Below are positions 1,191 to 49,289 of a stretch of 49,344 nucleotides of DNA, piece after piece. A model generated the notes under the pieces. The model did not search any database, was not told where the DNA came from, and worked only from the letters and a program-made list of their open reading frames with translations. Numbering within the stretch: the stretch's first letter is position 1; every line of letters starts with the position of its first letter. The stretch lies in the NCBI GenBank assembly GCA_023135905.1, contig JAGLSE010000003.1, positions 1 through 49,344 on the forward strand, written 5' to 3'. The position numbers were made by a program, and so were the translations under genes. The stretch comes from Candidatus Omnitrophota bacterium. Its GTDB lineage: Bacteria > Omnitrophota > Gorgyraeia > Duberdicusellales > 4484-171.

Positions 1191-2225
1191 TTGTTTTTTT
1201 ATGAGTATTTTTGGTTTTCACAAATGAATAATGTCCGTAATATTTATAATTTAGGTATAAGAGTACTTGTAAATAAGGTTTTGAGGGTTAAAACATTACC
1301 TATAGCTTTAAATTGGGCTATTACTTATAGATGTAATCAGGATTGCCTTTATTGTAATCTCAAGTCCTTTCCCCAGAAAGAATTATCTACTATAGAAATA
1401 CTTTCGGCTTTGGATAGGCTGAAAACCCTAAAAATTTCTACACTTTTTTTTACCGGAGGGGAACCTTTGATAAGAGAAGATATTGAAGAAATAATATACC
1501 ACGCCAAAAAAATCAATCATTGTGTATATTTAAATACTAATGGAAGTATAACCCCTTCTCTCTCTTCAGAGATCTTTAGTGTTGATAAAATATTTTTAAG
1601 TTATGAAGGGTCGGAAAATATTCACGATTCTATAAGGGGTGTTGGTAGTTATAAAAAACTTTTAATTTTTTTAAATAAGGCTATTCAGAAAAACAAAAAA
1701 GTACTTCTTCTTTCAACAATTAATAAGGCTAATGTTGATTTTATGGAAGATATTTTAAAGTTTGGTGAGTTTTATAAGATCCCAATAAGATTTCAGCCGC
1801 TTTCCTTGACTAGTTTGGGTGCAAAACAGATTAACCCTTTGCTTCCGGATATTGAAAAATATAGAAAAGCTCTGAATTACTTGATAGATGTAAAGAAAAA
1901 AAAAATATGTACCATTTATAATTCATTAGATACATTGGAATATTATCAAAGCTGGCCTAATCAAAAAAAAATTCTTTGTACAGCCGGAAACTTATTTTTT
2001 CGTGTAGAGCCCGATGGAAAAATTCTTTGTTGCCCTAAAGATAGGAATTTTACGGGAACTTATCTAAGTTCTCCTGATTTAAAAGAAGTATTTAAAAAAT
2101 CGTCATCACAGAAATGTAATGAATGCTGGTGCGCTTCTATTACAGAGCTTAATTGGGTAATGAAATTAAGATGGAAATCTATTTGGAATTTATTTGTGCT
2201 GGAAGGATTTAGAAAATATGGGTAA
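1191..2225 (+). CDS. Radical SAM protein with C-terminal SPASM-like Cys region
   Basis: TYRCNQDCLYCNL (CxxxCxxC), TGGEPLIREDI, C-terminal CTAGNLFFRVEPDGKILCC...KCNECWC. Internal ATG at 1224 is a possible alternative start. Confidence 0.88.
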   Translation: MFFYEYFWFSQMNNVRNIYNLGIRVLVNKVLRVKTLPIALNWAITYRCNQDCLYCNLKSFPQKELSTIEILSALDRLKTLKISTLFFTGGEPLIREDIEEIIYHAKKINHCVYLNTNGSITPSLSSEIFSVDKIFLSYEGSENIHDSIRGVGSYKKLLIFLNKAIQKNKKVLLLSTINKANVDFMEDILKFGEFYKIPIRFQPLSLTSLGAKQINPLLPDIEKYRKALNYLIDVKKKKICTIYNSLDTLEYYQSWPNQKKILCTAGNLFFRVEPDGKILCCPKDRNFTGTYLSSPDLKEVFKKSSSQKCNECWCASITELNWVMKLRWKSIWNLFVLEGFRKYG

Positions 2226-2534
2226 TAAACTTATTCATATAAGCTAAAAAGTAATAGTTTGATGATTAAATTTGGGTTGGTTTATTATTTTTTCCCAATG
2301 GTGACGTAATTATAAAGTAACGCGAATTTAAATGAGTACATATAAAAGCTTTTTAATATAAAAAATTTTTATTTTCATTTCTCTGTAATAAAACTTATAT
2401 ATAAGGTTTCTTAATTATGGCTTTTGCCTTCCAGATAAAAAATATTTTTTAAATAGCAAATTTTCAGATAAAGTGTGTATTGAAAAGTTTATAGATCTAA
2501 AATGTATAAGTATTAATAGAATTGGTTAAAAAGA

Positions 2535-3620
2535 ATGTGTAAAAATACCACTCCTCCTAATTTGGAAACTTGGCTAATGCCAATAGATATGTTAAAAAGT
2601 GAAAGATTAATTCAATCCATAGATATTGAACTTTCTAGAGAATGTAACAACTTTTGCATGTATTGTTTTACCAATGCTGGTAAGGCAGTAGATAATGAAT
2701 TGTCAATATCAGAGATCAAAAAAGTTATAAGAGAAGGAAAGGATATTGGCATCAAGCAAGTAGTAATTGTAGGCGGTGGCGAGCCCTTATTGTATAAGGG
2801 ATTGGAAGAAATCATTGATTTTATTAAGAATAATGATTTGGAAATTATAATTTTAACTAATGGTCTGTTACTCGACACAAAAAAATTAGATTATTTTTAT
2901 AAAAATAAGGTACATATTATAATAAAACTCAATGCTATAAATGATGGCCAAATACATGACTATCTAGTTGGAAAGAATGGTTCTTTTAAAAAGGTTCAAA
3001 AAGTAATATCCAGCGTATTAAAAAAAGGGTATGGCTTGTTGAATAATCCTAAAGTTGCTATAGAAAGCATTATTTGCAAAACAAATATTCAAGAAATATC
3101 TGTGATTTGGCGATGGGCTAGGAATAATAATATTCTTCCGATTATGGAATTGATAACTCCTCAAGGCAGGGCATCTAAGATGAAGGATTTATTTTTGTCT
3201 AAAGAAGAAGCTAACAAGTTGTTTTTTCAACTAAGTGAAATAGATAAGAATGAGTATAATTATGAATGGATACCTGTACCACCTATAGCCGGATTTTTTT
3301 GTAGAAGAAATGATTATAGCTGTTATATTACATCTTGTGGTGATGTTTTTCCTTGTTCTGGGATAGATATTAGTATAGGTAACGTAAGGAACGAATCGTT
3401 GTTGCAAATCCTGGAAGATTCTACTTTAATAAAAAAATTAAGAAAAAGTGATGAGTATTTAGAAGGGGAATGTGGGCGGTGCATTTTAAAGGGTAAATGT
3501 TATGGATGCAGAGGTAAAGCTTATCAAGTATATGGCAATCTGTTTGCTGAAGACCCATTGTGTTGGTTTAAAGGTAAGAACAGGGCAAGTTTAGAAAGAA
3601 TTGTAAGGGAAATTAGCTAA
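2535..3620 (+). CDS. Radical SAM/SPASM domain protein
   Basis: IELSRECNNFCMYCF (CxxxCxxC), VGGGEPLLY, SPASM-like YITSCGDVFPCSGIDISIGNVR...CGRCILKGKCYGCRG. Confidence 0.9.
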   Translation: MCKNTTPPNLETWLMPIDMLKSERLIQSIDIELSRECNNFCMYCFTNAGKAVDNELSISEIKKVIREGKDIGIKQVVIVGGGEPLLYKGLEEIIDFIKNNDLEIIILTNGLLLDTKKLDYFYKNKVHIIIKLNAINDGQIHDYLVGKNGSFKKVQKVISSVLKKGYGLLNNPKVAIESIICKTNIQEISVIWRWARNNNILPIMELITPQGRASKMKDLFLSKEEANKLFFQLSEIDKNEYNYEWIPVPPIAGFFCRRNDYSCYITSCGDVFPCSGIDISIGNVRNESLLQILEDSTLIKKLRKSDEYLEGECGRCILKGKCYGCRGKAYQVYGNLFAEDPLCWFKGKNRASLERIVREIS

Positions 3621-3686: not shown

Positions 3687-5048
3687 ATGAAGAGTCCTTC
3701 TTTAAAAAAGTATATTAAATTTAATCATCAACCTTTTGATTTTATTCGAAAAAAACAATTTTTAAAAATAAAAGAAACTGTTAGTTATGCTTATAATAAC
3801 TCTAAATTCTACAGAAGATTGTATGATAATGCTAAATTGTCCCCTGATAAAATTAAAGAATTTAGTGATTTTGAAAAACTGCCGTTAGTAAGAAGAAAAG
3901 ACCTGCATAAATATAATTGGGATATCCCAGCCGTAAGTAAGGATAAATGGATAGATATTTCCACTACTTCTGGAACTACAGCTAGACCGATTTATTTGCC
4001 TTGGACAAAAAAAGATTTTTTACGATTAGCTCAAATAACTTATATTCTTCATGGTTTGGCCGGCATAAGGAAAAAAGATTTAGTTCAAATTACTTATCCT
4101 TTAGGTATGGGCATGTGGATTGCCGGTTTGCATAATTGGTTGGGGCTGTATAAAAAAGAATCTTGCAGTTTAAGGTTTGGACCTGGGTTCACTGAATCTC
4201 AGTTGCATAATATGGAGAAACTTAGGCCAGATGTTTTATTAGGTTCACCGTCATTTTTATTTAAGCTGGGTGCTTATGCTAAAGATAGAAAAATGCAAAA
4301 AAAAATTAAACCAAGGCTTATTTGTGTTTCAGGAGAGAATATAGTCAATCATGATTTTAAATTTAATGATTTAGGGGTGAAATTAGAAAAAGTATGGGAA
4401 GGAAGCGATATTAGACCGGTTTATGGAGCTAGTGAAGGACCCATTTGCGGTGTGGTTTGCAATAAAGGTCAAGGGTACCATATACCTGCACAATTTTTTT
4501 ATTTAGAAGTTTTAGATATTAAGACTCATAATATTGTAAAACCTGGAAATAGAGGAGTTTTAGCTATTACTGTATTTGATGCTCAAGCTTTCCCTTTGAT
4601 AAGATATGTGTTAGGGGACATCACTTCTAGTTTTGAAGGTCCTTGTCAGTGTGGGTGGAATTCTTTACGGTTAGGACCTATTTTAGGCAGAGTTGACAGA
4701 TTATTAAAAGTGAAGGGAGTATTGATAAATTTGGAAGATATAAGGTCTTTAGTTTTAAAAAATAAAGATGTAGAAATTGCTTATCTGGAAATCATAAAGG
4801 ACGATAATCTTATTGATCAGGTAGTGGTTTATATCAGTTTTAATAATAAATTTGATAATTTTAATAGAAAAAGAGTGAAAGATGATATTAAATTTAAAAT
4901 AAAATCGAAATTTAGGATTAATACAAAAATTTTTGTAAAGTCAAATGAAAAATTACTTAAAAAAGTTTGGTTTACTGAAAAGAATGAGAGACGGCGAAAA
5001 CCGGTTTATATATTTGATGATAGAGGGGCGGGATGGCAAAACAAATAG
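3687..5048 (+). CDS. PaaK/CapK-like AMP-binding (adenylate-forming) protein
   Basis: N-terminal KFYRRLYDNAKLSPDKIKEFSDFEKLPLVRRKDL and ISTTSGTTARPIYLPWT (P-loop), YGASEGP, YVLGDITS, GRVDRLLKVKGVLINLEDI; phenylacetate-CoA ligase-like layout. Confidence 0.85.
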   Translation: MKSPSLKKYIKFNHQPFDFIRKKQFLKIKETVSYAYNNSKFYRRLYDNAKLSPDKIKEFSDFEKLPLVRRKDLHKYNWDIPAVSKDKWIDISTTSGTTARPIYLPWTKKDFLRLAQITYILHGLAGIRKKDLVQITYPLGMGMWIAGLHNWLGLYKKESCSLRFGPGFTESQLHNMEKLRPDVLLGSPSFLFKLGAYAKDRKMQKKIKPRLICVSGENIVNHDFKFNDLGVKLEKVWEGSDIRPVYGASEGPICGVVCNKGQGYHIPAQFFYLEVLDIKTHNIVKPGNRGVLAITVFDAQAFPLIRYVLGDITSSFEGPCQCGWNSLRLGPILGRVDRLLKVKGVLINLEDIRSLVLKNKDVEIAYLEIIKDDNLIDQVVVYISFNNKFDNFNRKRVKDDIKFKIKSKFRINTKIFVKSNEKLLKKVWFTEKNERRRKPVYIFDDRGAGWQNK

Positions 5049-6508
5049 ATGTTGCTTTAATTGGGACATCCCTTGTTAATTTAGGGATTAGGAGTCTTAA
5101 AGCTAGTTTAAAAGAAATAGGCATTAGTCCTCAGTTATATATTCTCAATACACGCAATCTGACTTACACAGATTCTGAAATAAAACATGTTATTACTGCT
5201 TTAAAAGACCAAGACCCTAAGATTATAGGCCTGTCTTGCATTGAGTATTCAGCTATTAAGGCTAAACAACTAATAAAATCAATAAAATCGAGTGATTTAT
5301 TAAGGAATAAAATTTTGATTGTAGGTGGGGTTCATCCCAGTATTTGTCCTGAAGAATACATTGATTTGGTTGATATTGTTTTAATAGGAGAAGGGGAAAG
5401 AGTTTTTATAGAATTGACTGAAAGTATTTTAAACAATAAAGACTACAGTAGTATAAGTAATTTATGGGTTAGAAATGGCGAAAAAATAATTAAAAATAAA
5501 AAGGGGCCTCTTATAGAAGATTTAGATATTTTGCCTTTGCCGGATTATTCTTCGGGTGTAAATATGTTAGTTTCCGGCAGGTTGGTAAAGTCAAAGAAAG
5601 AGGATTTGAGTGGAAGATATACTCATCTTAAGAAGAAAGCTGTTTTTTTGTTTGGAGTAAGAGGTTGCCCGAAACGCTGTTCTTATTGTATTAATAGCCG
5701 GTATGATAGCTATCAATGGAAAATAAGAAAAGTAAGTATAAATAAAATTGTAGAATATTTGCAAATTTTAAAAAGAAATTTGAAAGAGTTAGACTTTATT
5801 TTTTTTATTGAAGATGACTTTTTTCGGAGGAATCAAGATGAAATTGAAGAATTTTCATTAATGTATAAAAGAAAAATAAATTTACCTTTTTTTATGAACT
5901 GTTCTCCTGAAACAGTCAGTGATATTAAATTAAATATTTTAGTCAAAGCAGGCCTTAAAATATTGAATATGGGAATTCAGAGCGGGAGTGAAAGCGTAAA
6001 TAAAATAATTTTTAATAGGAATATTGATTCCGCTGAAATCATAAGGGCAGGAGGCATAATACATGAATACTCATCTAAAGTCTATCCTATGTATGATGTT
6101 ATAGTAAGCAATCCTTACGAGAGACATGAAGATCTTTTAGGGGGAATTAATTTAATTCAGAAAATACCTAAACCATTCATGCTGCATATCCATTATTTGG
6201 TGTTTTATAAGGGGACGGTACTTTATGATAAAGCTGTCAAAGATGGGCTTATTGATGAAAATTATTTGGAAAGTGGTTACGATTTGCATGTATTAAAACA
6301 GCATTTAAAGAAAAATGAAAATTATTATTTAAACTCATTGATTTCTTGGATGGAAGGTCGTCACACAGCATGGAGACGAGGTTATATCCCAGCTTTTTTT
6401 TTAAAAGTATTAATTATGAAAAAATGTTGTGTTTTTTTTAAAATGTTTCCGAATTTAGTTTTTTTTATAAATATTGTTTTAGATAGAGTGTGTAAAAGGA
6501 AGTCATAG
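5033..6508 (+). CDS. B12-binding domain radical SAM protein
   Basis: VGGVHPSICPEEYIDLVDIVLIGEGERVFIEL, GVRGCPKRCSYCINSR (CxxxCxxC), GIQSGSE. Starts 16 nt inside the preceding ORF. Confidence 0.88.
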   Translation: MAKQIDVALIGTSLVNLGIRSLKASLKEIGISPQLYILNTRNLTYTDSEIKHVITALKDQDPKIIGLSCIEYSAIKAKQLIKSIKSSDLLRNKILIVGGVHPSICPEEYIDLVDIVLIGEGERVFIELTESILNNKDYSSISNLWVRNGEKIIKNKKGPLIEDLDILPLPDYSSGVNMLVSGRLVKSKKEDLSGRYTHLKKKAVFLFGVRGCPKRCSYCINSRYDSYQWKIRKVSINKIVEYLQILKRNLKELDFIFFIEDDFFRRNQDEIEEFSLMYKRKINLPFFMNCSPETVSDIKLNILVKAGLKILNMGIQSGSESVNKIIFNRNIDSAEIIRAGGIIHEYSSKVYPMYDVIVSNPYERHEDLLGGINLIQKIPKPFMLHIHYLVFYKGTVLYDKAVKDGLIDENYLESGYDLHVLKQHLKKNENYYLNSLISWMEGRHTAWRRGYIPAFFLKVLIMKKCCVFFKMFPNLVFFINIVLDRVCKRKS

Positions 6509-6564: not shown

Positions 6565-7752
6565 ATGCAATTAATTGTGCCTACAAATTGGGATGACAGT
6601 CTGATAAAAGATTTAGAGGGCTTAAAGGTAAAGGAAGTTTTTGGTAAGCTTCAGTCAGATTGTTTTGGTGGAGGCAGACCCTCAATTTCTTTGCCTTACT
6701 TAACCAAAAAAGCTATGATTCGTCATATAAAGATAATTCATGAGCAGGGATATAAATTTAATTATTTATTGAATTCGGCTTGTATGGGCAATGTGGAGTT
6801 TACTCGTAAAGGACAGAAAAAAATGAGAAAGTTTGTTGATTTTCTAGCCAAAAGCGGAACGGATAGTGTGACAGTTGCCATTCCTTATCTTGCTAATTGG
6901 ATTAATAGAAATTATCCTAATATAAAAGTTAGAGCTTCTGTGGTAGCCAATATTGATTCTATTGAAAAAGCTAAGATGTGGGATAATTTTGGTGTGGATA
7001 GTATAGTTTTGAATATAGACAACAACCGTTCTTTTAGTTTTCTGCGCTTAATGAAAAAAGCTGTAAAATGTAAAATTGTTCTAATGGTTAATTCAGCCTG
7101 TTTATACAATTGTCCTTTATCCCAATATCATTACACATTAGTTTCTCATGGTTCACAGTCTATTCATAAATTAAAAGGATTTCATATTGATTATTGTCTT
7201 ATGTTTTGTTCATGGTATAGATTAACTGATTTATCACAGATTATTCGCTCTGGGTGGATTAGACCTGAAGATTTGGAATATTATGAGGGTTTGGGTATAA
7301 ATAATTTTAAGATAGTAGGTAGAGACCTGTCTAGAGAAAAAATCTATAGTATTGTTAGAGCTTATAGTGAAAGAAATTATCAAGGTAATTTGTTAGATAT
7401 ATTAAGCCCTTTTGCTGGATGGTCATCTTTTGATTTTAAGAAATTCATTAGATGCCTAAAATATATGCTTAGGCCTTCAAAAGTTAATATATTTAAGTTA
7501 TTGAAACTTAGAGATTTACCAAAGAAAAATTTCATATTTATAAACAATGAGAAATTAAAGGGGTTTATTGAAGGATTTCAAAATAGAAATTGTAAACAGT
7601 TAGATTGTAGTGATTGTTTTTATTGTAATGATATCGCAAAGAAAGTTATTGACGTGGATTATGATAGGCTTAATCAAGTAAAGCGAATGTATAAAAAAAT
7701 TTTGGAAGAGATAGAATCTGGAAGTATGTTCACGTTTAAAAAGGCTATTTAA
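6565..7752 (+). CDS. Peptidase U32-like family protein
   Basis: TIM-barrel-like protein: VRASVVANIDSIEKAKMWDNFGVDSIVLN, VNSACLYNCPLSQYHY, DYCLMFCSWYR, LGINNFKIVGRDLS. C-terminal NCKQLDCSDCFYC cysteine cluster. Confidence 0.75.
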   Translation: MQLIVPTNWDDSLIKDLEGLKVKEVFGKLQSDCFGGGRPSISLPYLTKKAMIRHIKIIHEQGYKFNYLLNSACMGNVEFTRKGQKKMRKFVDFLAKSGTDSVTVAIPYLANWINRNYPNIKVRASVVANIDSIEKAKMWDNFGVDSIVLNIDNNRSFSFLRLMKKAVKCKIVLMVNSACLYNCPLSQYHYTLVSHGSQSIHKLKGFHIDYCLMFCSWYRLTDLSQIIRSGWIRPEDLEYYEGLGINNFKIVGRDLSREKIYSIVRAYSERNYQGNLLDILSPFAGWSSFDFKKFIRCLKYMLRPSKVNIFKLLKLRDLPKKNFIFINNEKLKGFIEGFQNRNCKQLDCSDCFYCNDIAKKVIDVDYDRLNQVKRMYKKILEEIESGSMFTFKKAI

Positions 7753-9559: not shown

Positions 9560-10341
9560 AAATAATAGATGATGTTGATGAAATGAATGGAGAAGATTGG
9601 GATAAAGTAATTATGAAGGGAAAACATTATTTGAGGAATAATTTGTTTTGTAAAAAAAAAAATAAAGAGATAATTAGTCTTATTGATAAGTGGGATGAGC
9701 CAGGAAATAAAAAGGTTTTAGTTACGGATTTATTTGAAGATGCTTTGGTCCCCAAGGGCATTTTTGAATGGCTTCAAGGTAGATATCAAATGGTATTTGG
9801 AATTGATATTTCCAAAGAAACAATAAAAAGTTTTTATAGAGATAGAAATATAAATGCAAAAAGATGCTTAGTTTGCGATGTTCGTGAAATATCTTTTAAG
9901 AATAATTCTTTTGATTTAATAGTGTCTGATTCTACTTTAGATCATTTTAAAAATATAGAGTCAGCTTTAACGGAATTATATCGAGTATTAAGACCTGGAG
10001 GTAAATTAATATTAAATCTTAATAATAAGTTTCAATTTTTTTTTTCTTTGAAAATTTGGATAAAAAAAAGATTCAATATAAAAGATTATTCTTATGGATA
10101 TAGTTATTCTTTAAGTTATGCTTATGAATTATTAAAGAGGATAGGTTTTGATATTGATGAGTCTACTTATTTATATTTTTTCCCGCCTTTTTTGAAATTT
10201 TTTATACCTAAGAAGAATAATAAAATTTTGCAGTTTTATGAAAGATGGTTAGACAGATACAATTTATTTGTTAGTAAAAACAAATATCTTAATATATTTA
10301 CGGGTTCTAACTTTGCTATAAAAGCTTTTAAAAAAAAATGA
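9550..10341 (+). CDS. Class I SAM-dependent methyltransferase
   Basis: VFGIDISKETIK, CDVREISFKNNSFDLIVSDSTLDHFKNIESALTELYRVLRPGGKLILNLNN. Confidence 0.85.
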   Translation: MVMKIIDDVDEMNGEDWDKVIMKGKHYLRNNLFCKKKNKEIISLIDKWDEPGNKKVLVTDLFEDALVPKGIFEWLQGRYQMVFGIDISKETIKSFYRDRNINAKRCLVCDVREISFKNNSFDLIVSDSTLDHFKNIESALTELYRVLRPGGKLILNLNNKFQFFFSLKIWIKKRFNIKDYSYGYSYSLSYAYELLKRIGFDIDESTYLYFFPPFLKFFIPKKNNKILQFYERWLDRYNLFVSKNKYLNIFTGSNFAIKAFKKK

Positions 10342-11873
10342 AAATTTTATTAACAGAGCCAATTTCAAATTTTATTCCTGTTAGATTAGGGTTTTATTGT
10401 CCGCATAACGGTATTCTTTCAATTGCAAGTTTTCTTGAGAAATGGGGTTATGATGTGAAAGTCGTTGAACCTTGGATTTTTCGTTTTAATATGAATAAAC
10501 TAGTCAATTATATAAAATGTGAAAGTCCGGATGTAGTAGGTATAACAAGTACGACCTGTACTGCTTATCATGCCATGGTTTTAGCTAAGCTTGTAAAGGA
10601 GATTTCTCCAAAAACAATTGTTATAGTTGGGGGACATCATTTCTCGTTTGCATATTTGGAGAGTTTGGAAATATGTGAAGATATTGATTATATAATAATA
10701 GGAGAAGGCGAACATTCTTTTTTAGATTTAGTAAATTCTTTGAAAAGTGGGAAAAGAAAAATAGACATGAAAGACATACCGGGCTTAGCTTTTAAATTAG
10801 AAAAAAAAATTATTAAAACTCCTCCGCGTCTGTGTATTGAGGATTTAGATGAAATGCCTTTACCTGCTTACCATTTTTTGTTTTTTAAAGATAAAGTTAA
10901 AGCTCCCTTGGCTAGGGGGGGAACAATCGGTTGTGTGTTTTCAAGAGGATGTTCTAATAAATGTACATTTTGTTCAGAATCCTTATTGTGGCAATATAAA
11001 AACAGGTGCAGGGGAGCAGAAAATATTTTAGAAGAAATAAGGCTCTTGGTTGGAAGATATAAAATTTTTGAATTTACGTTTGAAGACGCGGATTTCTTAT
11101 GTAATAGAGAAAGAAATTTAAGATTTTTAGAACTATTAGGCAAGGAACATTTTCGAATTAAATTTAGATTTGCGACGAGAGTAGATATATTGATAGAAAA
11201 TCGAGATATTCTTTACGATTTTCGAAAATTAGGGCTAATCTCCGTGGTTGTAGGCATAGAGAGTTTTTCTCAAAAATGTTTAGATAAATGGGATAAAAAG
11301 ACTCAAGTAGAGCAAATATTTTTAGCTGCCAAATATATCAAAAAGGCTAAAATTCCTGTGTTTGAGGGGTTGACTATTATTGGTTCTTATAATGAGAGTA
11401 AAGAAAATATAAATAAGATATTGATGAAAGCTGAGAAGGTAAAAGTCAATACTCTTTGGTCAACAATATTGACGCCATTTCCTGGAACGCCTTTATATAA
11501 AACAGGAATAAAAGAGAAGACTATTAAAATTTATGATTATCGTAAATATAATATGTATAACGCGGTAATGGAACTTTATAAAATATCTTTAAATAAAATT
11601 GAGATTTACAATATATTAATACATATGAAATGGTTTTATAACCCTGTGAGATGGGCAAAAAGTTTATTTAATCCGCAATGGCGAAAGTTTCAATTTTTTC
11701 AGCTATTTTTCGATTTTAAAATTATTGTGCGAATTTTGTTCTTTGTAGGAGATAAGGCTAATAAAAGAAGTGGTAGATACCAGAGTTTAATAAGATATTT
11801 CCACTATAGACACCTTAACTTTTTAAATAAGAGTAATAAGTCTTTTCGAAGTATTAAAGTTTGGAGAGATTAA
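10338..11873 (+). CDS. B12-binding domain radical SAM protein
   Basis: IIIGEGEHSFLDL, VFSRGCSNKCTFCSESLLW (CxxxCxxC), VVGIESFS, TPFPGTPLY. ATGA overlap with the preceding ORF. Confidence 0.9.
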   Translation: MKILLTEPISNFIPVRLGFYCPHNGILSIASFLEKWGYDVKVVEPWIFRFNMNKLVNYIKCESPDVVGITSTTCTAYHAMVLAKLVKEISPKTIVIVGGHHFSFAYLESLEICEDIDYIIIGEGEHSFLDLVNSLKSGKRKIDMKDIPGLAFKLEKKIIKTPPRLCIEDLDEMPLPAYHFLFFKDKVKAPLARGGTIGCVFSRGCSNKCTFCSESLLWQYKNRCRGAENILEEIRLLVGRYKIFEFTFEDADFLCNRERNLRFLELLGKEHFRIKFRFATRVDILIENRDILYDFRKLGLISVVVGIESFSQKCLDKWDKKTQVEQIFLAAKYIKKAKIPVFEGLTIIGSYNESKENINKILMKAEKVKVNTLWSTILTPFPGTPLYKTGIKEKTIKIYDYRKYNMYNAVMELYKISLNKIEIYNILIHMKWFYNPVRWAKSLFNPQWRKFQFFQLFFDFKIIVRILFFVGDKANKRSGRYQSLIRYFHYRHLNFLNKSNKSFRSIKVWRD

Positions 11874-20431: not shown

Positions 20432-20479
20432 TTTAATTTTTGGGAATACATAGTCTATCATTTATCTTTGATAACAGTT

Positions 20480-21550: not shown

Positions 21551-21562
21551 TATAAGAGGTTT

Positions 21563-31547: not shown

Positions 31548-32319
31548 AGATAGGATTAAAAAAATATATTTATATAGACATGTTTTAATCAGTATGTCTA
31601 TCTCCCAGTTTAAGGCTAAATATGCGGGGTCTAAACTTGGAATATGGTGGGCTGTAATTATTCCTTTGTTATTAGCAGGGAGTATCAATCTTGTATTTAC
31701 ACGGGCTTTCAATGTAAATGTTAAGCATTATACTCTTTTTGTTTTGTCTGGGATTATCCCTTGGCTATTTTTTTCTAATGCCTTGATGGAAGCGGTTAAT
31801 TCATTTACTGGTAATGCTTCATTGATAAAACAAAGTATATTTCCTCGCGAATTTATACCTATAGCTTCTATTGCCGGCAATCTTTTAAATTTTTTAGTAG
31901 GTTTTATTTTTTTGCTGCCACTTTTTATAATTGTTAATTATAAAGTTTTATTTATGGCGGGATTTTTAATAATACTTATTATATGTTATTTTTTATTTAT
32001 TGTTGGTATAGGATTTTTATTTTCAACTATAAATGTTTTTTTTAGAGATCTTGGTCATTTCCTTTCGGTTGGGTTTATGGTTTGGTTTTGGATTACACCC
32101 ATTTTCTATTCTTTAGATATGTTATCATTCCCGATTCGCTGGATTTGTTTAATCAATCCGATGAGTCTTTATGTAATAGCTTATAGAAAACTTTTGTTTG
32201 ATGCCAGTGGCCTTTCATTATTTATGATAGGGGGGTTGATTTTAGTTTCGTTGGGATCTTTATTTATTGGATATATGATTTTTATTAGGAATGAAAATAA
32301 TTTATTAAAACAAATATGA
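31540..32319 (+). CDS. ABC-2 type polysaccharide exporter permease (Wzm/TagG-like)
   Basis: SQFKAKYAGSKLGIWWAVIIPLLLAGSINLVFTRAF; six-TM profile; FFRDLGHFLSVGFMVWFWITPIFYSL; LINPMSLYVIAYRKLLF. Confidence 0.92.
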   Translation: MFKDRIKKIYLYRHVLISMSISQFKAKYAGSKLGIWWAVIIPLLLAGSINLVFTRAFNVNVKHYTLFVLSGIIPWLFFSNALMEAVNSFTGNASLIKQSIFPREFIPIASIAGNLLNFLVGFIFLLPLFIIVNYKVLFMAGFLIILIICYFLFIVGIGFLFSTINVFFRDLGHFLSVGFMVWFWITPIFYSLDMLSFPIRWICLINPMSLYVIAYRKLLFDASGLSLFMIGGLILVSLGSLFIGYMIFIRNENNLLKQI

Positions 32320-38132: not shown

Positions 38133-38157
38133 CAAAAAATGTTTTAATGAATAGAAT

Positions 38158-39612
38158 ATGAAGATTATCAAGAAAGTTTTAGACATAATAAAAAAAAGAA
38201 AAATTTTTAAAAATAAAGAGGTGACGGATATCATACTTATCCAATGTCCTCCTTGGGATGTTTCTATACCTCCGTTAGGGATAGCTTATCTGTCGGATTA
38301 TTTAAAAAAGCATGATTATTATGTTTATCCTTTTGATTTAAATATTGAATTATATCATTCTGCTAAAGCGGCAGACAAATATTTATGGGAGCAAAAAAGT
38401 TATGACCATTGGGTTAAAGATGAGTTATATGAAAAAACATGGCATAGTCTTAGAAAGATTTCCGGGAAGATTTTAGAGCAAGCCTTTAAGAAATATAATA
38501 CAGAATATGTGGGGTTATCTGTTAATTTTGCAAGCATAAAAATTGCTGGTGAAATAATTAAAGTAATAAAGAGTTTAAATCCCAGGACCAAAATAATTTT
38601 GGGTGGATGGGGATGTGTTAATGGGCATATGAGAAGTTTATTCCCTAAAGAATTAGTTGATGTTTTTGTTATAGGTGAAGGAGAAGAGACATTGTTGGAG
38701 GTTCTGGATAAGTTGAAGGGTAAAATAGATAAAACTAGGATCCCGGGAGCTATTTTTAATAAATTAGGACAGGATACTTATGAGTCCAGAGAATCGATAA
38801 TAGACCTAGACAGTATTCCTTGGCCTAAATATAGTGAATTTAATTTGAATCTTTATATTAAAAAAGCAATGCCTTTATTCGCCAGTAGAGGGTGTATCGG
38901 TCATTGTACTTTTTGTAATGATTGGCCCCTTTCAAAACCCTATCGGTTTCGCAGCGCGCATAATATTTTTGAAGAAATTCAATATCATGTAAAAACTTAT
39001 CATATAAATTATTTTAGTTTTAAAGATTTGTTATGCAATGGAAACATAGAGGAACTAAATTTATTGTGTGATTTGATTATTGATTCAGGTTTACAGATTC
39101 ATTGGGATTCTCAAGCTATTACCCGCAAAGAAATGACTAGGGAGTTGTTGCGTAAACTTAAAAGGTCAGGATGTGGAACGTTGATATATGGGGTTGAGAA
39201 TTTTTCTAATAATGTTTTAAGAAGAATGAAGAAAATGTTTACTAAAGAGATTGCGGAAAAGGTATTAAAAAATACCTATGAAATAGGGATTAATGCTTGT
39301 ATTAATATTATAGTAGGTTTTCCAGGGGAGACTGAGATGGATTTTGAAGAAAATCTTGAATCCATAAAAAGGAATTACAAATATATTACACAGATTGGAG
39401 CGGTTAGTGTATGTTTAGTAAATAACGATAGTGATTTGGAAATTAACTCCAAGGAATATGGTTTGGTTTTGCCTGATGATTCACGGACGCGTGCTAAAAA
39501 ATGGTATACTTCTGATGGCCAAAATACTTATGAAATAAGAAAAATGAGGGCAGATAAAATGCTTAAATTGATTAAAGATTTAAAGTTGTCTTATGCGACA
39601 ATAACGGTATGA
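38158..39612 (+). CDS. B12-binding domain radical SAM protein
   Basis: IQCPPWDVSIPPLGIAYLSDYLKK, VIGEGEETLLEV, ASRGCIGHCTFCNDWPLS, IYGVENFSNNVLRRMKK, VGFPGETEMD. Confidence 0.9.
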   Translation: MKIIKKVLDIIKKRKIFKNKEVTDIILIQCPPWDVSIPPLGIAYLSDYLKKHDYYVYPFDLNIELYHSAKAADKYLWEQKSYDHWVKDELYEKTWHSLRKISGKILEQAFKKYNTEYVGLSVNFASIKIAGEIIKVIKSLNPRTKIILGGWGCVNGHMRSLFPKELVDVFVIGEGEETLLEVLDKLKGKIDKTRIPGAIFNKLGQDTYESRESIIDLDSIPWPKYSEFNLNLYIKKAMPLFASRGCIGHCTFCNDWPLSKPYRFRSAHNIFEEIQYHVKTYHINYFSFKDLLCNGNIEELNLLCDLIIDSGLQIHWDSQAITRKEMTRELLRKLKRSGCGTLIYGVENFSNNVLRRMKKMFTKEIAEKVLKNTYEIGINACINIIVGFPGETEMDFEENLESIKRNYKYITQIGAVSVCLVNNDSDLEINSKEYGLVLPDDSRTRAKKWYTSDGQNTYEIRKMRADKMLKLIKDLKLSYATITV

Positions 39613-40802
39613 ATTTAGAAATTAAAGATCTTGTTTTGAAGGGCCTTTTAGACGGCGCAAAGGCTTTTGTCGGACCGGAAACTGTTCAGTTTGATATAAC
39701 CAACAGATGCAATAATAATTGTTTATGCTGCTGGAGAAATTCTCCCCTTTTAGGTGAATCCAGCGAAGAGGATAAAAGGGAAAAAGAATTTGAGCTTCCT
39801 TTTTCGGTAATAAAGAAAACAATAGATGAGCTTAAGATAATGGGAACAAAAAAAATATTTTTTGCCGGAGGAGGGGATCCCTTTGTTCATCCGAAAATTA
39901 TGAAAATATTGAGATACGCTAAAAAATGCAAAATGAAGATTTATATCAATACCAATTTTACATTAGTTGATAAAAAAAGAGCGAGAGAGTTAGTAAAACT
40001 TAAAGTAGATCATATACATGTGAGTGTTTTAGCCGGAAATTCAAAGACCTATTCTTTAGTTCATCCGAATAAGTCAGAGGAAATGTTTTGTAAAATAAAA
40101 AAAGTTTTAAAATACATCGCAGTCTTAAAAAAAAATAGGAGACAGCATCTTTATAATCCGTTACCCCATATTAACCTTTATTATGTTATTTTTAATAAGA
40201 ATTATAAAGATATTAATGAAATGGTTGATTTAGCCATATATGTAAAAAGCGATACTATGGAATTTACACCGATAGATGTTGTTGCTGGTAAGACCGATTC
40301 TTTACTGTTAGACGCCGAACAAATAAATTCGGTCACTAATGATGTGAAAAACAATATTGGACGGTTGAGAAAGTGCAATAAATCTCAGTCAGTTAAGATT
40401 AATATTGAACAGTCTGAAAATTTTTTAAAAAGGATCAACTCTTCTTTGGCTTTAGAAGGTAAATATGAATCAAAAACTGTGATTAATCAACCCTGTTATG
40501 TGGGTTGGGCTTTTGCCAGGATAACGGCTGATGGAGAAGTGAATCCTTGTTTAAAAGCACACCGGATATCAATAGGTAATATTTATAAAAACTCATTTGA
40601 GGAAATATGGAATAGTCCGGAAGAACAGGAGTTTAGAAGAAAATCATTTAATTTAAATTTAAATGATATATATTTAAAAGATATCGGGAATGACCCAAAT
40701 TTAACCTTTGGCTGTTTACAAAGTTGCGACAATCTTCAAATAAGCTTAGATATGAATAAAAAGTATATAGATATATTGAGAGGATATGGGAAAGTTAAAT
40801 AA
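39609..40802 (+). CDS. Radical SAM/SPASM protein, tandem copy 1
   Basis: DITNRCNNNCLCCWRNSPLL, AGGGDPFVHPKI, CYVGWAFARITADGEVNPCLKAHRISIGN...GCLQSCDN. Confidence 0.9.
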   Translation: MNLEIKDLVLKGLLDGAKAFVGPETVQFDITNRCNNNCLCCWRNSPLLGESSEEDKREKEFELPFSVIKKTIDELKIMGTKKIFFAGGGDPFVHPKIMKILRYAKKCKMKIYINTNFTLVDKKRARELVKLKVDHIHVSVLAGNSKTYSLVHPNKSEEMFCKIKKVLKYIAVLKKNRRQHLYNPLPHINLYYVIFNKNYKDINEMVDLAIYVKSDTMEFTPIDVVAGKTDSLLLDAEQINSVTNDVKNNIGRLRKCNKSQSVKINIEQSENFLKRINSSLALEGKYESKTVINQPCYVGWAFARITADGEVNPCLKAHRISIGNIYKNSFEEIWNSPEEQEFRRKSFNLNLNDIYLKDIGNDPNLTFGCLQSCDNLQISLDMNKKYIDILRGYGKVK

Positions 40803-42036
40803 AATAATTAAAGATAAAAACCAGTTGTTACTGATGATGGGGGTTTTACATTCATCCAAGGCTTTTGTTTCCCCGGAAGTTTTGCATTTAGATTTAACAA
40901 ATATGTGTAATTTTGATTGTATTGCTTGTTGGTGCAGATCTCCTTTGTTAAGGGATAAAGCTATGCCGGCTTGGGAAAGGAAATTGACTCTTCCTTTACC
41001 CTTATTAAAAAGTGTTTTTGATGATTTGTTTGAAATGGGAGGATTAAAACAGGTGAAATTGGTTGGAGGTGGAGAACCTTTTATGCACCCTGACATATTG
41101 GAGATTGTGGAATATATTAAAAACAATGATAAAAAAGTTCAGATAGATATAAATACTAATTTTAGTCTTGTTGATGAACTGATAGCTGAGAGATTAATAG
41201 CGTTAGGGGTTGATTCCTTAACGGTAAGTGTTTGGGCGGGAACTCCTGAGGTTTATTCCTCAGTTCATCCGAATCAAACTGAGGCGACTTTTGATAGAAT
41301 AAAGGAGGTTTTAATATTTCTTCATCAACTAAAAAAGAAACTTCAAGTCAACCATCCCAGGATAACAATACATAATGTTATTTTAAAATTAAACTATAGA
41401 GATATCTCCGAGATGATACAATTCGCGTTAGATACAGGTACTCATGATATACAATTTGTTCCTGTCGACCCTGTTAAAAGTAAAACAGAAGCTTTATTAT
41501 TGAGTGATAATGAAAAAGGAGAACTGCTTGATTTATTATATGAGATTAGAAAACGTTACGATTCAACATCTTTTCAATATACCGCGGAAGATAAGAGAAG
41601 AGTTGTTCTCAGTGATTTTGATGGATTTATAAGTCGAACTGAAAGATTAAATACCAAGAGTGGAGCCTATGATGAAGATATTATTGAGGAAATACCTTGT
41701 TATGTCGGCTGGCTATTCGCGAGAATAATGACTACAGGTAATGTAGTCCCCTGCTGTAAGGGGCACAGAATGCCTATGGGCAATATAAATAAAAATAGGT
41801 TTAAAGATATTTGGAATTCAGATACTTATAATAATTTTAGACACAAAGGCATTAATTATCCTAAAAGTCATGGTTATTTTTCCAGGATGGGGAATAAGGC
41901 AGTCTCAAAGACAGGTTGCTATAATTGCGATAATCTTTGGCAAAATATTCCTATGCAGAATAAAATTAATTTGTTAAGAAAGGAACATCCTAAGCTATTT
42001 AAGCTTAGTAAATTTTTTCTTAAAAAAATTATTTGA
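40786..42036 (+). CDS. Radical SAM/SPASM protein, tandem copy 2
   Basis: DLTNMCNFDCIACWCRSPLL, VGGGEPFMHPDI, CYVGWLFARIMTTGNVVPCCKGHRMPMGN...GCYNCDN. 17-nt overlap with the preceding ORF. Confidence 0.9.
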   Translation: MGKLNKIIKDKNQLLLMMGVLHSSKAFVSPEVLHLDLTNMCNFDCIACWCRSPLLRDKAMPAWERKLTLPLPLLKSVFDDLFEMGGLKQVKLVGGGEPFMHPDILEIVEYIKNNDKKVQIDINTNFSLVDELIAERLIALGVDSLTVSVWAGTPEVYSSVHPNQTEATFDRIKEVLIFLHQLKKKLQVNHPRITIHNVILKLNYRDISEMIQFALDTGTHDIQFVPVDPVKSKTEALLLSDNEKGELLDLLYEIRKRYDSTSFQYTAEDKRRVVLSDFDGFISRTERLNTKSGAYDEDIIEEIPCYVGWLFARIMTTGNVVPCCKGHRMPMGNINKNRFKDIWNSDTYNNFRHKGINYPKSHGYFSRMGNKAVSKTGCYNCDNLWQNIPMQNKINLLRKEHPKLFKLSKFFLKKII

Positions 42037-42039
42037 TAT

Positions 42040-43194
42040 ATGATTTTTAAAGTTATTAGAAAAGCATTCTTAAAGGAGAATAAAAGAAGATATTTAAATT
42101 TAAAGGGCATTGTTTCAAAACATTATGCCTATAAAGGTCCGGATGTAGTTCAAATAGATTTGACTGATAAATGCAATAGTCATTGTCTTGTATGTTGGGA
42201 ACACTCCCTTATTAAAGAAAAAGAGAGAGAGACCGATTTTTGCAGTCTTGATTTTTACAAGGTTAAAGATTTTATAAGAGATATTGCTAAACTAGGGGCT
42301 AGGGAAGTAATCTTTTCTGGAGGGGGGGAACCTTTTTGTTACCCTAATATTTGGAAAGTATTAGAATGGACCCAGCTACAGGGGTTAAATTTTCATATAA
42401 ACACGAATTTTACTTTATTAGGGAAAGAAGAGATCCGTGAACTTTTGAGTTTCAATAAATTATCTTCTTTGACAATTAGCCTTTGGGGTGGAACATTTGA
42501 ATTGTATTCAAAACTTCATGGCAGAGAAGAAGACGTATTTTATAAGCTTAGAGATAATATTAAATTTTTGAATCAGGTTAAACCTCGAAGTCTTTATGTA
42601 AAGACAGTGGCTATCGTTAATAAAATCAATTATTTGAATTTGCAAGATTTATTAGATTTTATCGCAGAAATCGGATGTATTAATATAGAATTTGGAGTCT
42701 GTGATGTCATCCCCGGTGAAACCGATTCATTTTTATTGAATAAATATCAACTTAGTTTATTGAGGGCGAATTTTATTGGATTAGTTAAAAATATAAAAAA
42801 AAAGAGGTATAAGATTAAAATAGTTAATAAAGAAAGATTTTTGAAAAGAATTTCAAATCCAAGTGCTTGCTATGGCGAATATGATAGTTATGTCAAAGGA
42901 ACACTTTGTTATTCCGGCTGGCTTTTTTTAAGATTAAGGGCTAATGGGGATTTCAATTCATGTCTAAAGTCTCACCGTATTCCAATAGGGAATTTATACA
43001 ACGAGGGCATTTTTTCAGTATGGAATAATTTATTGCAGCAAAAATTTCGAAGGGAATCTTTGTGTATCCCTAAGAATGAGGAGTATTTTAAGTTTATAGG
43101 TAATGGTAATGGTGATAATGTTGGCTGTAAACGCATATGTGATAATATTTCTGTAAATGAATATGTTGATAAGGTTGCAAGATACTTTTTATGA
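42040..43194 (+). CDS. Radical SAM/SPASM protein, tandem copy 3
   Basis: DLTDKCNSHCLVCWEHS, SGGGEPFCYPNI, CYSGWLFLRLRANGDFNSCLKSHRIPIGN...GCKRICDN. Confidence 0.9.
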   Translation: MIFKVIRKAFLKENKRRYLNLKGIVSKHYAYKGPDVVQIDLTDKCNSHCLVCWEHSLIKEKERETDFCSLDFYKVKDFIRDIAKLGAREVIFSGGGEPFCYPNIWKVLEWTQLQGLNFHINTNFTLLGKEEIRELLSFNKLSSLTISLWGGTFELYSKLHGREEDVFYKLRDNIKFLNQVKPRSLYVKTVAIVNKINYLNLQDLLDFIAEIGCINIEFGVCDVIPGETDSFLLNKYQLSLLRANFIGLVKNIKKKRYKIKIVNKERFLKRISNPSACYGEYDSYVKGTLCYSGWLFLRLRANGDFNSCLKSHRIPIGNLYNEGIFSVWNNLLQQKFRRESLCIPKNEEYFKFIGNGNGDNVGCKRICDNISVNEYVDKVARYFL

Positions 43195-43227
43195 TTTTAA
43201 GTATGTATTTTAAATAAGGCAAGCGAA

Positions 43228-43347
43228 ATGCGAAAAAAGAAAAAGTTTTTTCTTATATTTTTTTTATTTATTATAGCATTAGTCATGGATATAATTTTTT
43301 TTATATTAAAAAAAATTAGGAATACAACTTTTTTCCCCGGAGCTTAA
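43228..43347 (+). CDS. Putative 39-aa membrane microprotein (not in ORF track)
   Basis: ATG 43228 to TAA 43345-43347: MRKKKKFFLIFFLFIIALVMDIIFFILKKIRNTTFFPGA; positively charged N-terminus plus one TM helix; exactly fills the gap before the ATG at 43349. Confidence 0.4.
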   Translation: MRKKKKFFLIFFLFIIALVMDIIFFILKKIRNTTFFPGA

Positions 43348-43348
43348 T

Positions 43349-44524
43349 ATGAATATATTGATGATACATCCTCACGATATTTATTCTCAATCTGAGCCGT
43401 GGACTATACGTATAAAAAGAATTGCCGCTGAGTTTATAAAAAAAGGGCATTCGGTTAAATTAGTTTATTTCCCTGAGGATAAAAAAAACGCATACAAAAG
43501 AGATGTGGAGAATAATATCGAAATATTTTCTATGAATAGAATTGTTAGTAGTTTTGTGTTTTTTCGTAATATTATAAATATAGTTAAGTTGGCTCAGGAA
43601 TGCGATATTATTCATTTTCAAAAGTGTCATTACACTGCGTCTCTCCCGGCATTAATTGCGGCATTTATTTGTGATAAACCTATTCACTATGATTGGGATG
43701 ATTGGGAGACAAAAATATTTTATTATTCAAATCCTCATCAGAAATTTGTTGGAGAATTTATTAATATGTTTGAAAAATTAATCCCTCAAGTAGTGGATAC
43801 AGTGTCTGTGTCAAGTAGTTATATCAATGATCTTTGTGTGAAAAGGGGAGTAAACCCCGAAAATATTTTTTTCGCGCCAGTGGGGGCAGATGTAAGAAAA
43901 AGTGAAAATAACAGTCATAATAATGAAAAGATTAGGGAGAAATATGGTGTTTTTAATAAACTTGTGTTGTACGTAGGCCAGCTTCATGGAGGCCAATATG
44001 CCGAGTTATTCGTTAAAGCCGCGCATATAGTTGTTGAGAGCGGATTTGACGCGACCTTTATGATATTAGGTGACGGCTATAGGCTTAGTGAGTTAAAACG
44101 GTTAGCTGTAAAGCTTAATATTGAAAGCCGTTGTATTTTTCCCGGGGCGGTTAAGCATAAGATTGTATCGGAATATATTTTAGCAGCGGATGTATGTGCC
44201 GCTTGTTTTGAGGACAATGAGATAACCCGATGTAAGAGCCCTCTAAAGATTGTGGAGTATTTAGCTTGCGGTAAGCCCATTGTTGCCAGCAATGTCGGAG
44301 AGGTTAGAAATATGGTGGGGGGGGTTGGAGTTCTTGTAGAACCGGGCAGTTCAAAATTATTGGCGCATGGTATAATGAATTTGTTGAAAAATGATACATT
44401 AAGGGAAAATTTAAGCGAATGGGGCAAAGAAAGGATTTCTCGAAAATATAATTGGGAAGCGACAGCTAATAGTATATTTAAAGCTTATGAACGAGGTCTT
44501 AAAAAAAATAAAGTTAAATTATAA
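43349..44524 (+). CDS. Glycosyltransferase family 4 (GT-B)
   Basis: LMIHPHDIYSQSEPWTIRIKRIAAEFIKKGHSVKLVYFP, KLVLYVGQLHGGQYAELFVKAA, RCKSPLKIVEYLACGKPIVASNVGEVRNMV. Confidence 0.92.
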   Translation: MNILMIHPHDIYSQSEPWTIRIKRIAAEFIKKGHSVKLVYFPEDKKNAYKRDVENNIEIFSMNRIVSSFVFFRNIINIVKLAQECDIIHFQKCHYTASLPALIAAFICDKPIHYDWDDWETKIFYYSNPHQKFVGEFINMFEKLIPQVVDTVSVSSSYINDLCVKRGVNPENIFFAPVGADVRKSENNSHNNEKIREKYGVFNKLVLYVGQLHGGQYAELFVKAAHIVVESGFDATFMILGDGYRLSELKRLAVKLNIESRCIFPGAVKHKIVSEYILAADVCAACFEDNEITRCKSPLKIVEYLACGKPIVASNVGEVRNMVGGVGVLVEPGSSKLLAHGIMNLLKNDTLRENLSEWGKERISRKYNWEATANSIFKAYERGLKKNKVKL

Positions 44525-44541
44525 TTAAAGGAGGGTATCCA

Positions 44542-44814
44542 ATGAGTGCACAAGATGATTTTAAGTCTATGACCGGAAAAGTGAATTCAGTTAGTGAACA
44601 TGAGGATGCTCCTTATACAATAGAAATTGAAACCAAATCTTTTTTATCTAGGAAAAATGATGCGGTTACTGTGGATCCTCGGTGCACTTTTTATAAATCA
44701 GATAAAAACCTTAAGGATATTGATATCATTGCTCGGGGCGATAACATTAAAATAACATATTTTATCCATGAAGGTATAAAAATAGCGATGAATGTTATTG
44801 TTATGCCTAAATAA
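44542..44814 (+). CDS. Small conserved-looking cytoplasmic protein, paralog of the 45138 product
   Basis: 90 aa with strong SD AAAGGAGGG (44527-44535); DPRCTFYKSDKNLKDI and GIKIAMNVIVMPK shared with the 45138 product. Confidence 0.75.
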   Translation: MSAQDDFKSMTGKVNSVSEHEDAPYTIEIETKSFLSRKNDAVTVDPRCTFYKSDKNLKDIDIIARGDNIKITYFIHEGIKIAMNVIVMPK

Positions 44815-45137: not shown

Positions 45138-45494
45138 ATGAAAAGATGGATGTTTAGCGGTTTGATGATAATTTTATGTTTGGGTTTTAGTTTAAGAGTA
45201 TTTAGTCAAGAATTAGATTTTAAAATTTTGGGTGCGGAGGTTCTTGAAGTAAGATTGAAAGATAACCCACATACAATGAGAGTCGTCACTCAGCTGAAAT
45301 ATAAGAGGGGAAAAGCAGTTGAAGAAGATTTAACCATAGACCCTCAATGTACTTTTTATAAAGGAGATGAAAAACCTAAAACAATAGCAATACTAAAACC
45401 TGAAGATATGGTGGAAATTACTTATACAGTAAGTAAAGGTATTAAAATAGCTTTTAATATAATAGTTTTACCTGAAGAAGAGGTTGTAGAATAA
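45138..45494 (+). CDS. Small exported protein, paralog of the 44542 product
   Basis: Signal peptide MKRWMFSGLMIILCLGFSLRVFSQ; strong SD AAAGGAGGT (45124-45132); DPQCTFYKGDEKPKTI and GIKIAFNIIVLPE. Confidence 0.8.
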   Translation: MKRWMFSGLMIILCLGFSLRVFSQELDFKILGAEVLEVRLKDNPHTMRVVTQLKYKRGKAVEEDLTIDPQCTFYKGDEKPKTIAILKPEDMVEITYTVSKGIKIAFNIIVLPEEEVVE

Positions 45495-47739: not shown

Positions 47740-47885
47740 GCACACATATTTTTTTAAGATAATAAATAGAGGCGTCTTTCAATTTAATAGTTTAATAATA
47801 AATTATTAAAATTGAATATTAAGTAGCAAAATAACATTTTAGCTTTTTAGAATTAGGCATCGGACAATTTATAATAAAAAAAGAT

Positions 47886-49289
47886 ATGAGAATACTTCTA
47901 TTATATAATAATTTTTTACCGGAAATTCATTGGAATTGTTTAAAGGCCCAGGAAAAAAATATGGGAGCAATACCGCCTTTGAATTTATGTTATGTTGCTG
48001 CAATGGTCCGTGATTTGGGTCACGAGGTGAAATTGATCGATTTACAAGTAGAAAAATTATCTTTTGAAGAAGTAATTTCTAATATTAAAGAATATCAGCC
48101 TGACATCTTGGGGTATACGATAACTACCTATCTTTTTCAAGGAGTTCTTGAATGGATAAAAGCTATAAAAAAACGGGTAAATATTCCAGTTTTGGTAGGA
48201 GGGTTTCATATGAGTCTTTATCCCGTTGAAACAATGAAACATTCAGAAATTGACTATGCGATAGTAGGATATGGACAAGAATCTCTTAGGGACTTTTTTG
48301 TTAATTTCGGGAATATAGAGGTATATAAAAAAATAGACGGTCTGTGTTATAGAAAGGGAGATATAGTATACATTAATCCCCTTAAACAAGGATCTTCAGT
48401 AAATCTTAATATTATGCCTTTTCCGGCCAGGGATTTATTGAAAAATGATTTATATGGAAATTTTATTTGTAAAAAGAAAAATTTTACAGTTATGTTAACC
48501 GGAATAGGTTGTCCGTTTAAATGTAAATATTGCGCTTCAACTTTGTCCAGATGTGTTATGAGAAGTGCTGACAATGTTGTAGATGAGATTGAGGAGTGTT
48601 ACCATAAATATAATATTCGCGAGATCGATTTTTATGATCAAAGTTTTACTTTAGATAAAAAAAGGACCTTAGATATTTGTCGAGGTATTGGGGAAAGAAA
48701 ACTAAAGATTATTTGGACAATTAGAACTAGAGCGGACTTAATAGATAATGAATTGTTAGAAATAATGAAGGGTGCCGGTTTATATAGGGTGATGTATGGC
48801 ATTGAAAGCGGAGAACAGAAAATTCTTGATCGTTTGAATAAAAAAGAAAAAATCTCAAAAATAGAGGAAGTTGTTAAATTAACGCATAAATATGGAATTT
48901 CTGTTTTTGGTTTTTTTATGCTGGGCTGTCCCGGTGAAACTAAAGACACTATAAAAAAAACTATTAAGTTCGCACTTTCTTTGCCTTTCGATGAAATACA
49001 AGTAACTCGCTTTACCCTTTTCCCCGGGACAAAATTTTATCAAGAGTATCGCAATAAAACAGGGCAGGAAGATTATTGGCGTAATTATGTTTTAGATAGG
49101 GGTAATGTCAAAAAGTTACCTTTATTAGATACTCCATTTACTCCTATTGAAATGGAGAAGTATGTTAAAAAGATGTTTTTAATATTTTATTTACGGCCTT
49201 CAATTATTTTAAAAAAAATAAGTGAAGGTGGTTTAATATTAAATTTTAGAAAATATTTCAGAGCGCTTTTAGATATGCTGTTTAATTAA
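47886..49289 (+). CDS. B12-binding domain radical SAM protein
   Basis: IPPLNLCYVAAMVRDLGHEVKLIDLQ, VGGFHMSLYP, TGIGCPFKCKYCASTLSR, MYGIESGEQKILDRLNK, MLGCPGETKDT. Confidence 0.9.
   Translation: MRILLLYNNFLPEIHWNCLKAQEKNMGAIPPLNLCYVAAMVRDLGHEVKLIDLQVEKLSFEEVISNIKEYQPDILGYTITTYLFQGVLEWIKAIKKRVNIPVLVGGFHMSLYPVETMKHSEIDYAIVGYGQESLRDFFVNFGNIEVYKKIDGLCYRKGDIVYINPLKQGSSVNLNIMPFPARDLLKNDLYGNFICKKKNFTVMLTGIGCPFKCKYCASTLSRCVMRSADNVVDEIEECYHKYNIREIDFYDQSFTLDKKRTLDICRGIGERKLKIIWTIRTRADLIDNELLEIMKGAGLYRVMYGIESGEQKILDRLNKKEKISKIEEVVKLTHKYGISVFGFFMLGCPGETKDTIKKTIKFALSLPFDEIQVTRFTLFPGTKFYQEYRNKTGQEDYWRNYVLDRGNVKKLPLLDTPFTPIEMEKYVKKMFLIFYLRPSIILKKISEGGLILNFRKYFRALLDMLFN

Follow-up and report, generated by a model that had tools for sequence, protein, structure and literature searches.

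Radical SAM genes and a conserved exporter cassette

The DNA studied here (the window) is a stretch of 49,344 nt, positions 1 to 49,344 of contig JAGLSE010000003.1 of Candidatus Omnitrophota bacterium (assembly GCA_023135905.1), a metagenome-assembled genome of 1.66 Mb and 92.5% completeness. It contains 17 open reading frames (ORFs) coding for radical S-adenosylmethionine (SAM) enzymes, all on the + strand and every one with a CxxxCxxC motif; five of them belong to a cassette, conserved in related genomes, that also codes for an exporter. In a Pfam profile search all 17 exceeded the cut-off for PF04055. A B12-type domain was present at the N-terminus of ten, nine of which passed the PF02310 cut-off; the tenth, B8 (36633-38132), fell below it in the window, although it matched HpnJ from end to end (244 bits) and some of its homologues matched PF02310. 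These observations bear out a preliminary description of this DNA, which had reported 17 co-oriented radical SAM genes, ten of the B12 type, among a set of named neighbour families, all of which were located. None of the 17 proteins reached a curated NCBIfam cut-off, and most of the B12-type enzymes matched BchE/HpnJ-type families below cut-off. The source genome has 58 PF04055 matches; assuming a gene number of 1,450-1,800 and taking the window as about 36 genes, the probability of finding 17 or more of them here is about 1e-16, so the clustering is not attributable to chance. The relatives sampled carried from 10 to at least 50 radical SAM genes per genome. Other radical-SAM-dense contigs of the source genome were represented by L001-L003 (contig C93) and L004-L005 (C92), with U32a-type proteins at the contig ends; the B12-type protein L001:1962-3371, on C93, lacks CxxxCxxC.

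Besides the radical SAM genes, the window holds glycosyltransferases of the GT2, GT39/PMT_2 and GT4 families, a DegT protein, amino-oxidase/UDP-galactopyranose mutase (UGM)-like flavin adenine dinucleotide proteins, GNAT proteins, a methyltransferase, a PaaK/FlxY-like ligase, and a pair formed by an ABC2_membrane protein and an ATP-binding cassette (ABC) ATPase. The preliminary description had overlooked two Peptidase_U32 proteins (6565-7752 and 20468-21550) and, beside the latter, a small conserved protein that partners it (21563-22354); it had also missed the new domain, whose five copies lie in 32316-35786 and 35779-36636. A promoter scan of the window returned sites no more numerous than in shuffled sequence.

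Comparison by Blast of the 20-kb loci of relatives with the window delimited the conserved cassette to 30231-44814, all on the + strand. Its order is kept in distant Omnitrophota, across families, and its genes from 30231 to 43194 overlap or almost touch one another in the window. The first, FADb (30231-31547), is a UGM-like flavoprotein that adjoins Wzm in most relatives; its nearest solved protein is the UDP-galactopyranose mutase 4dsg (E 2e-51), and it scored only 47 of the 303.75 bits set for the NCBIfam UGM family, TIGR00031. It is followed by a Wzm-type ABC permease (31540-32319; PF01061 above cut-off, with a weak match to the galactan export protein Wzm/RfbD) and by a Wzt-type ATPase (32316-35786) whose nucleotide-binding part is closest, among solved proteins, to the O-antigen Wzt 6amx/8dku (E ~1e-64), the match stopping at residue 231. 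The exporter is a Wzt-type ATPase paired with an ABC-2 permease, and the ATPase comes closest to the exporters of O-antigen and teichoic acid. Next come a small ORF (35779-36636), B8, a second B12-type radical SAM enzyme, B9 (38158-39612; PF04055 and PF02310; fused behind B8 in L016 and L068), and three radical SAM/SPASM enzymes with PF04055 and PF13186, namely rS5 (39609-40802; 66% in UBA1562), rS6 (40786-42036) and rS7 (42040-43194). The cassette closes with a GT4 glycosyltransferase (43349-44524; PF00534/PF13692; 46-61% at the same position in relatives) and a 90-aa ORF (44542-44814; 58% at the same position in L016). This last has a paralogue at 45138-45494, which has a signal-like N-terminus.

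The core genes are thus linked in a conserved order rather than being independent single genes, and the comparison indicates that the locus is a mosaic of a conserved core and a variable remainder. The proposal of a single 17-enzyme pathway was not supported by it as stated: the core takes in just five of the 17 enzymes (B8, B9 and rS5-7).

A new beta-supersandwich domain on the exporter ATPase

The Wzt ATPase (residues 1-238) is extended at its C-terminus by four copies of a domain of ~210 aa, referred to here as the module (residues 239-443, 482-682, 716-930 and 947-1153, delimited with a local hidden Markov model). A fifth copy occupies residues 46-254 of the small ORF at 35779-36636, just before B8, and this ORF corresponds to the N-terminus of B8 in at least 14 of the relatives' loci. 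No Pfam family matched the module, even with the threshold relaxed to E 10, and a PDB sequence search gave no meaningful match. The AlphaFold model of the fifth copy (35779-36636) is a beta-sandwich (pLDDT 82, pTM 0.76), and comparison of this model with PDB folds assigned it to the glycosidase/mutarotase-type beta-supersandwich class. Foldseek matches were chiefly to sandwich domains of glycoside hydrolases and phosphorylases (TM ~0.5, ~8% identity). The carbohydrate-binding domain known from the C-terminus of Wzt was absent from the 50 top-ranking fold matches, and the C-terminal region carries no Pfam family. In a tree of module sequences the copies grouped by their position in the protein (13 changes versus 98 with shuffled labels), which indicates that the copies are old and specialised. 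The module would define a new protein domain family, with members in roughly one of every six Omnitrophota genomes.

The resemblance to glycoside hydrolase domains might mean that the module is itself catalytic, cleaving or mutarotating a glycan instead of binding or docking it. We regard this as most improbable: conservation is highest at aromatic and structural residues (W, Y, F, G), an invariant pair of acidic residues is not evident, and the glycoside hydrolase parts matched are mostly accessory sandwich domains rather than catalytic barrels.

Linkage and fusions in other Omnitrophota

Among 384 Omnitrophota genomes, the module was found in 68 and an orthologue of B8 in 64, and 61 had both (Fisher 7e-59). 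Local profiles made from the window proteins were then run on the ORFs of relatives' loci in 54 selected genomes. The ATPase was joined to the module in 38 of these, the module to a B12-type radical SAM enzyme within one ORF in 34, and the module to a SPASM radical SAM enzyme in 19. An assembly artefact was considered and rejected as the source of the module-B8 fusion, the fused state recurring in many genomes. In three of the 54, the exporter ATPase and a radical SAM domain formed one ORF (L027, 1,902 aa; L086, 1,856 aa; and L105), the fusions in L027 and L086 being confirmed with Pfam. Proteins in which a GT2 glycosyltransferase and a radical SAM domain are joined, in some cases with SPASM as well, adjoined the exporter in five genomes and were likewise Pfam-confirmed (L067:14186-16078, L033:4908-6875, L101:15714-17630, L103:14505-16418 and L104:4860-6764); GT39-module proteins occurred in two.

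Radical SAM domains were also fused to one another. In several relatives the homologues of rS5-7 are joined as one triple-SPASM protein of ~1,420 aa, six genomes code for proteins with the order B12-type radical SAM, module, SPASM, module, and in three genomes a protein of ~1,920 aa combines three SPASM radical SAM domains with one of the B12 type (L087:7918-13671, L088:3652-9411 and L089:2870-8656; one of them has 1,917 aa). At loci with an ATPase-module gene, 157 radical SAM ORFs lay on the strand of the exporter and one on the opposite strand. The shared new domain and the direct fusions tie the radical SAM enzymes of this Omnitrophota cassette to a glycan exporter; as evidence for a glycan-modifying pathway, such comparative genomics is much stronger than gene density alone.

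Among named relatives, Candidatus Omnitrophica bacterium UBA1562 is the nearest to have a B8 homologue, and it was also the only return when named genomes were scanned for the range of the system outside the phylum. Plasmid matches to the fused protein, among the best ones, aligned along its radical SAM part and left the module uncovered. One such plasmid, NZ_CP106952.1 of Eleftheria terrae, codes at 102223-103473 for a radical SAM protein that shares 34% identity with the B8 part. A literature search, which did not extend to subscription journals, found no account of Omnitrophota radical SAM loci like this one or of radical SAM-Wzt fusions; the available portion of a survey of the Omnitrophota (PMC10066038) mentions cobalamin once and does not describe such loci.

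A sugar as the probable substrate of B8

B8 is 50-65% identical across its class, and over 100 of the alignment columns are invariant. Its nearest solved relative is AprD4 with paromamine bound (PDB 6fd2), by sequence (9e-29), by profile (8e-34) and by fold (TM 0.72), although with 114.2 bits it does not reach the 500-bit cut-off of the AprD4 family (NF033070). The best curated family for B8 is HpnJ (TIGR03471), at 244.1 bits versus a cut-off of 577.6 and so below it. Since AprD4 and HpnJ both act on sugars, a sugar is the best guess for the B8 substrate.

The preliminary description had noted that B12-type enzymes typically methylate unactivated carbons or remodel rings. Methylation may occur here, but the closest counterparts of B8 are a sugar deoxygenase (AprD4) and a sugar-rearranging family (HpnJ). 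AprD4 illustrates that B12 chemistry does not follow from a B12-like fold. Neither CobS nor the B12 domain of MetH was found in the source genome, and a single FecCD permease was present; whether the B12-type enzymes use cobalamin is therefore uncertain.

The match to HpnJ, a hopanoid-lipid enzyme, together with the below-cut-off matches of most window B12-type enzymes to BchE/HpnJ-type families, could instead mean that what the radical SAM enzymes tailor, and the ABC exporter flips, is not a sugar polymer but a membrane lipid or glycolipid such as a hopanoid-like or ether lipid. Radical SAM enzymes are indeed known from lipid pathways (PMC11868695). Yet HpnJ itself works on the sugar moiety of its lipid, forming a cyclitol ether from glucosaminyl-bacteriohopanetetrol (PMC12583986), the ATPase has its closest relatives among O-antigen and teichoic-acid exporters, and the core is surrounded by GT2, GT4, GT39 and UGM-like enzymes, with GT2-radical SAM fusions in relatives. 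A lipid substrate is thus unlikely.

A model of radical tailoring coupled to export

The reading that we favour, and hold to be fairly probable, is that the core (30231-44814) codes for enzymes that tailor a lipid-linked glycan by radical chemistry in a system coupled to the exporter, in which the module handles the glycan for both the enzymes and the exporter. The glycosyltransferases would assemble the glycan chain; B8, B9 and the three SPASM enzymes would carry out several steps on it at the level of C-H bonds (deoxygenation, epimerisation, oxidation or C-methylation); and the Wzm/Wzt-type ABC exporter would then carry the product outward. Being present on the exporter ATPase and on the radical enzymes, the module may be the glycan-handling part that keeps both on the same chain, by analogy with the unrelated carbohydrate-binding domain of O-antigen Wzt, which holds a methyl-capped chain. 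In canonical Wzt, the binding domain reads the chemically modified chain end (PMC9445017). The core enzymes would most likely tailor a lipid-linked glycan recognised by the exporter, pointing to a surface glycan rebuilt by radical chemistry at or before export.

Several points weigh against this reading. The system is present in only about one sixth of the Omnitrophota genomes, and the 54 genomes surveyed were largely picked by their matches to the module, B8 or Wzt, so that the fusion counts come from a non-random sample. One ATPase-module-SPASM-like fusion (L105:8470-12039) lacks CxxxCxxC and may be a pseudo-enzyme. The Foldseek matches of the module include OpgG, YidC and a viral capsid protein, the latter two not sugar-handling; the likeness of the modelled module lies at the level of the fold and does not prove sugar binding. 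Finally, SPASM enzymes often act on peptides.

This last point, and the below-cut-off matches of several B12-type enzymes to models of methyltransferases for ribosomally synthesised and post-translationally modified peptides (RiPPs), would fit SPASM and B12-type enzymes whose substrate is RiPP-like or a surface protein, a peptide or protein that the ABC system then exports or anchors. Against such a substrate stand the polysaccharide-type exporter, which has no peptidase domain, the GT2 fusions, which point to sugar, and the failure of all the proteins to reach the curated RiPP cut-offs; no repeated precursor-like gene was seen, short ORFs not having been systematically searched. Peptide modification is accordingly very unlikely.

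A bolder form of the glycan model can be entertained tentatively, as possible rather than probable: a glycan 'assembly line' in which radical SAM, glycosyltransferase and exporter modules are joined by the repeated supersandwich as a docking or binding domain and remodel a lipid-linked glycan in several radical steps on the exporter, the order of the domains varying by lineage much as in modular megasynthases. If exporter-coupled tailoring is correct, a polysaccharide export ATPase would be covalently joined to radical enzymes, tying C-H chemistry to the export of surface glycans in a widespread, largely uncultured phylum. It would also provide a new domain family and a testable handle on the large radical SAM repertoires of the small Omnitrophota genomes.

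The variable part of the locus

Blast of relatives' loci against the window showed the upstream half of the locus to vary among genomes. All the features that follow lie on the + strand and, where they are radical SAM enzymes, belong to the twelve outside the core. The variable part begins with rS1 (1191-2225; PF04055) and the SPASM enzyme rS2 (2535-3620; PF04055, PF13186), followed by a PaaK/FlxY-like adenylating enzyme (3687-5048; NCBIfam FlxY, 275 of 520 bits), the B12-type enzyme B1 (5033-6508; PF04055, PF02310) and the U32-family protein U32a (6565-7752; PF01136), a 40% homologue of which lies near the exporter in L033. B2 (10338-11873) and B3 (11880-13439), both B12-type with PF04055 and PF02310, are 38% identical. 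Further downstream are rS3 (19412-20431; PF04055) and a UbiU-like U32 protein (20468-21550; PF01136) with a small partner at the UbiV position (21563-22354), a pair (20468-22354) found near the core in L017 as well. Identification of the partner as UbiV was not accepted: it is backed by position and conserved pairing, but profile comparison with the UbiU-like protein gave no match, and the partner is at best a putative U32 protein. Four B12-type enzymes follow, B4 (22357-23874), B5 (23881-25290) and B7 (26915-28357), each with PF04055 and PF02310, and B6 (25354-26898), which is 40% identical to B4. Between B7 and the core lies rS4 (28932-29957), with a MoaA/PqqE-like core; B10 (47886-49289; B12-type, PF04055, PF02310) lies downstream of the core. 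Enzymes of the rS4 type occur in tandem arrays beside the exporter in relatives. At L094:1-8124, eight radical SAM ORFs of ~340 aa stand in a row beside the exporter, and comparable arrays were seen in L082-L084, L099, L100 and L106.

In 38 relatives, a sampled genome of the same genus included, B3 had no homologue at E 1e-60. Clear homologues of B4 were found in two of the 38, neither being the same-genus genome. At least two of the twelve non-core radical SAM genes, the two examined individually, are thus lineage-specific. This near absence, and the further radical-SAM-dense contigs of the source genome, would agree with a glycan gene island that has gathered unrelated radical SAM genes by horizontal shuffling, without a common pathway. 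For the locus as a whole we consider this quite unlikely, and for the core it is contradicted by the constant gene order across families and the repeated domain fusions; it may be correct for part of the twelve non-core enzymes. Under exporter-coupled tailoring, the best explanation, these twelve would belong to the same island as a variable set of genes for tailoring or for sugars. The earlier idea of a novel pathway modifying an exported glycan or glycolipid is thus supported by linkage, shared modules and fusions, but not as one fixed pathway of 17 enzymes: the preliminary description had picked out a real feature in the right field, and the narrower and stronger statement is that of a conserved exporter-coupled cassette.

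Comparison with known systems

The U32 proteins recall the O2-independent hydroxylases UbiU/UbiV and might have a role in anaerobic oxidation, but the window U32 protein scored 101.1 bits against UbiU (NF047963), far below the 440-bit cut-off. B8 resembles the radical SAM 1,2-diol dehydratase AprD4 (PDB 6fd2), its nearest solved relative by sequence and fold, in a presumed sugar-type substrate; it differs in sharing only ~22% identity, below the AprD4 cut-off, and AprD4 comes from an aminoglycoside pathway with no exporter cassette. HpnJ, the hopanoid cyclitol-ether enzyme, is the curated family that B8 matches best and has a lipid-bound sugar as its substrate; B8 reached 244 of 577.6 bits, and no further hopanoid genes were seen in the window. 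With the Wzm/Wzt O-antigen exporter of Aquifex aeolicus (PDB 8dku; PMC9445017) the cassette shares the type of ATPase and permease, an extra C-terminal domain on the ATPase and, as an idea, a modified chain read by the exporter. Here, however, the extra domain is a repeated supersandwich that no solved structure matches by sequence, and the putative modification enzymes are radical SAM proteins fused to that same domain or to the ATPase. Antibiotic and RiPP cassettes also combine several radical SAM enzymes in one cluster; in the Omnitrophota loci there are up to 17 per locus and up to four radical SAM domains per protein of ~1,900 aa, in linkage with a glycan exporter.

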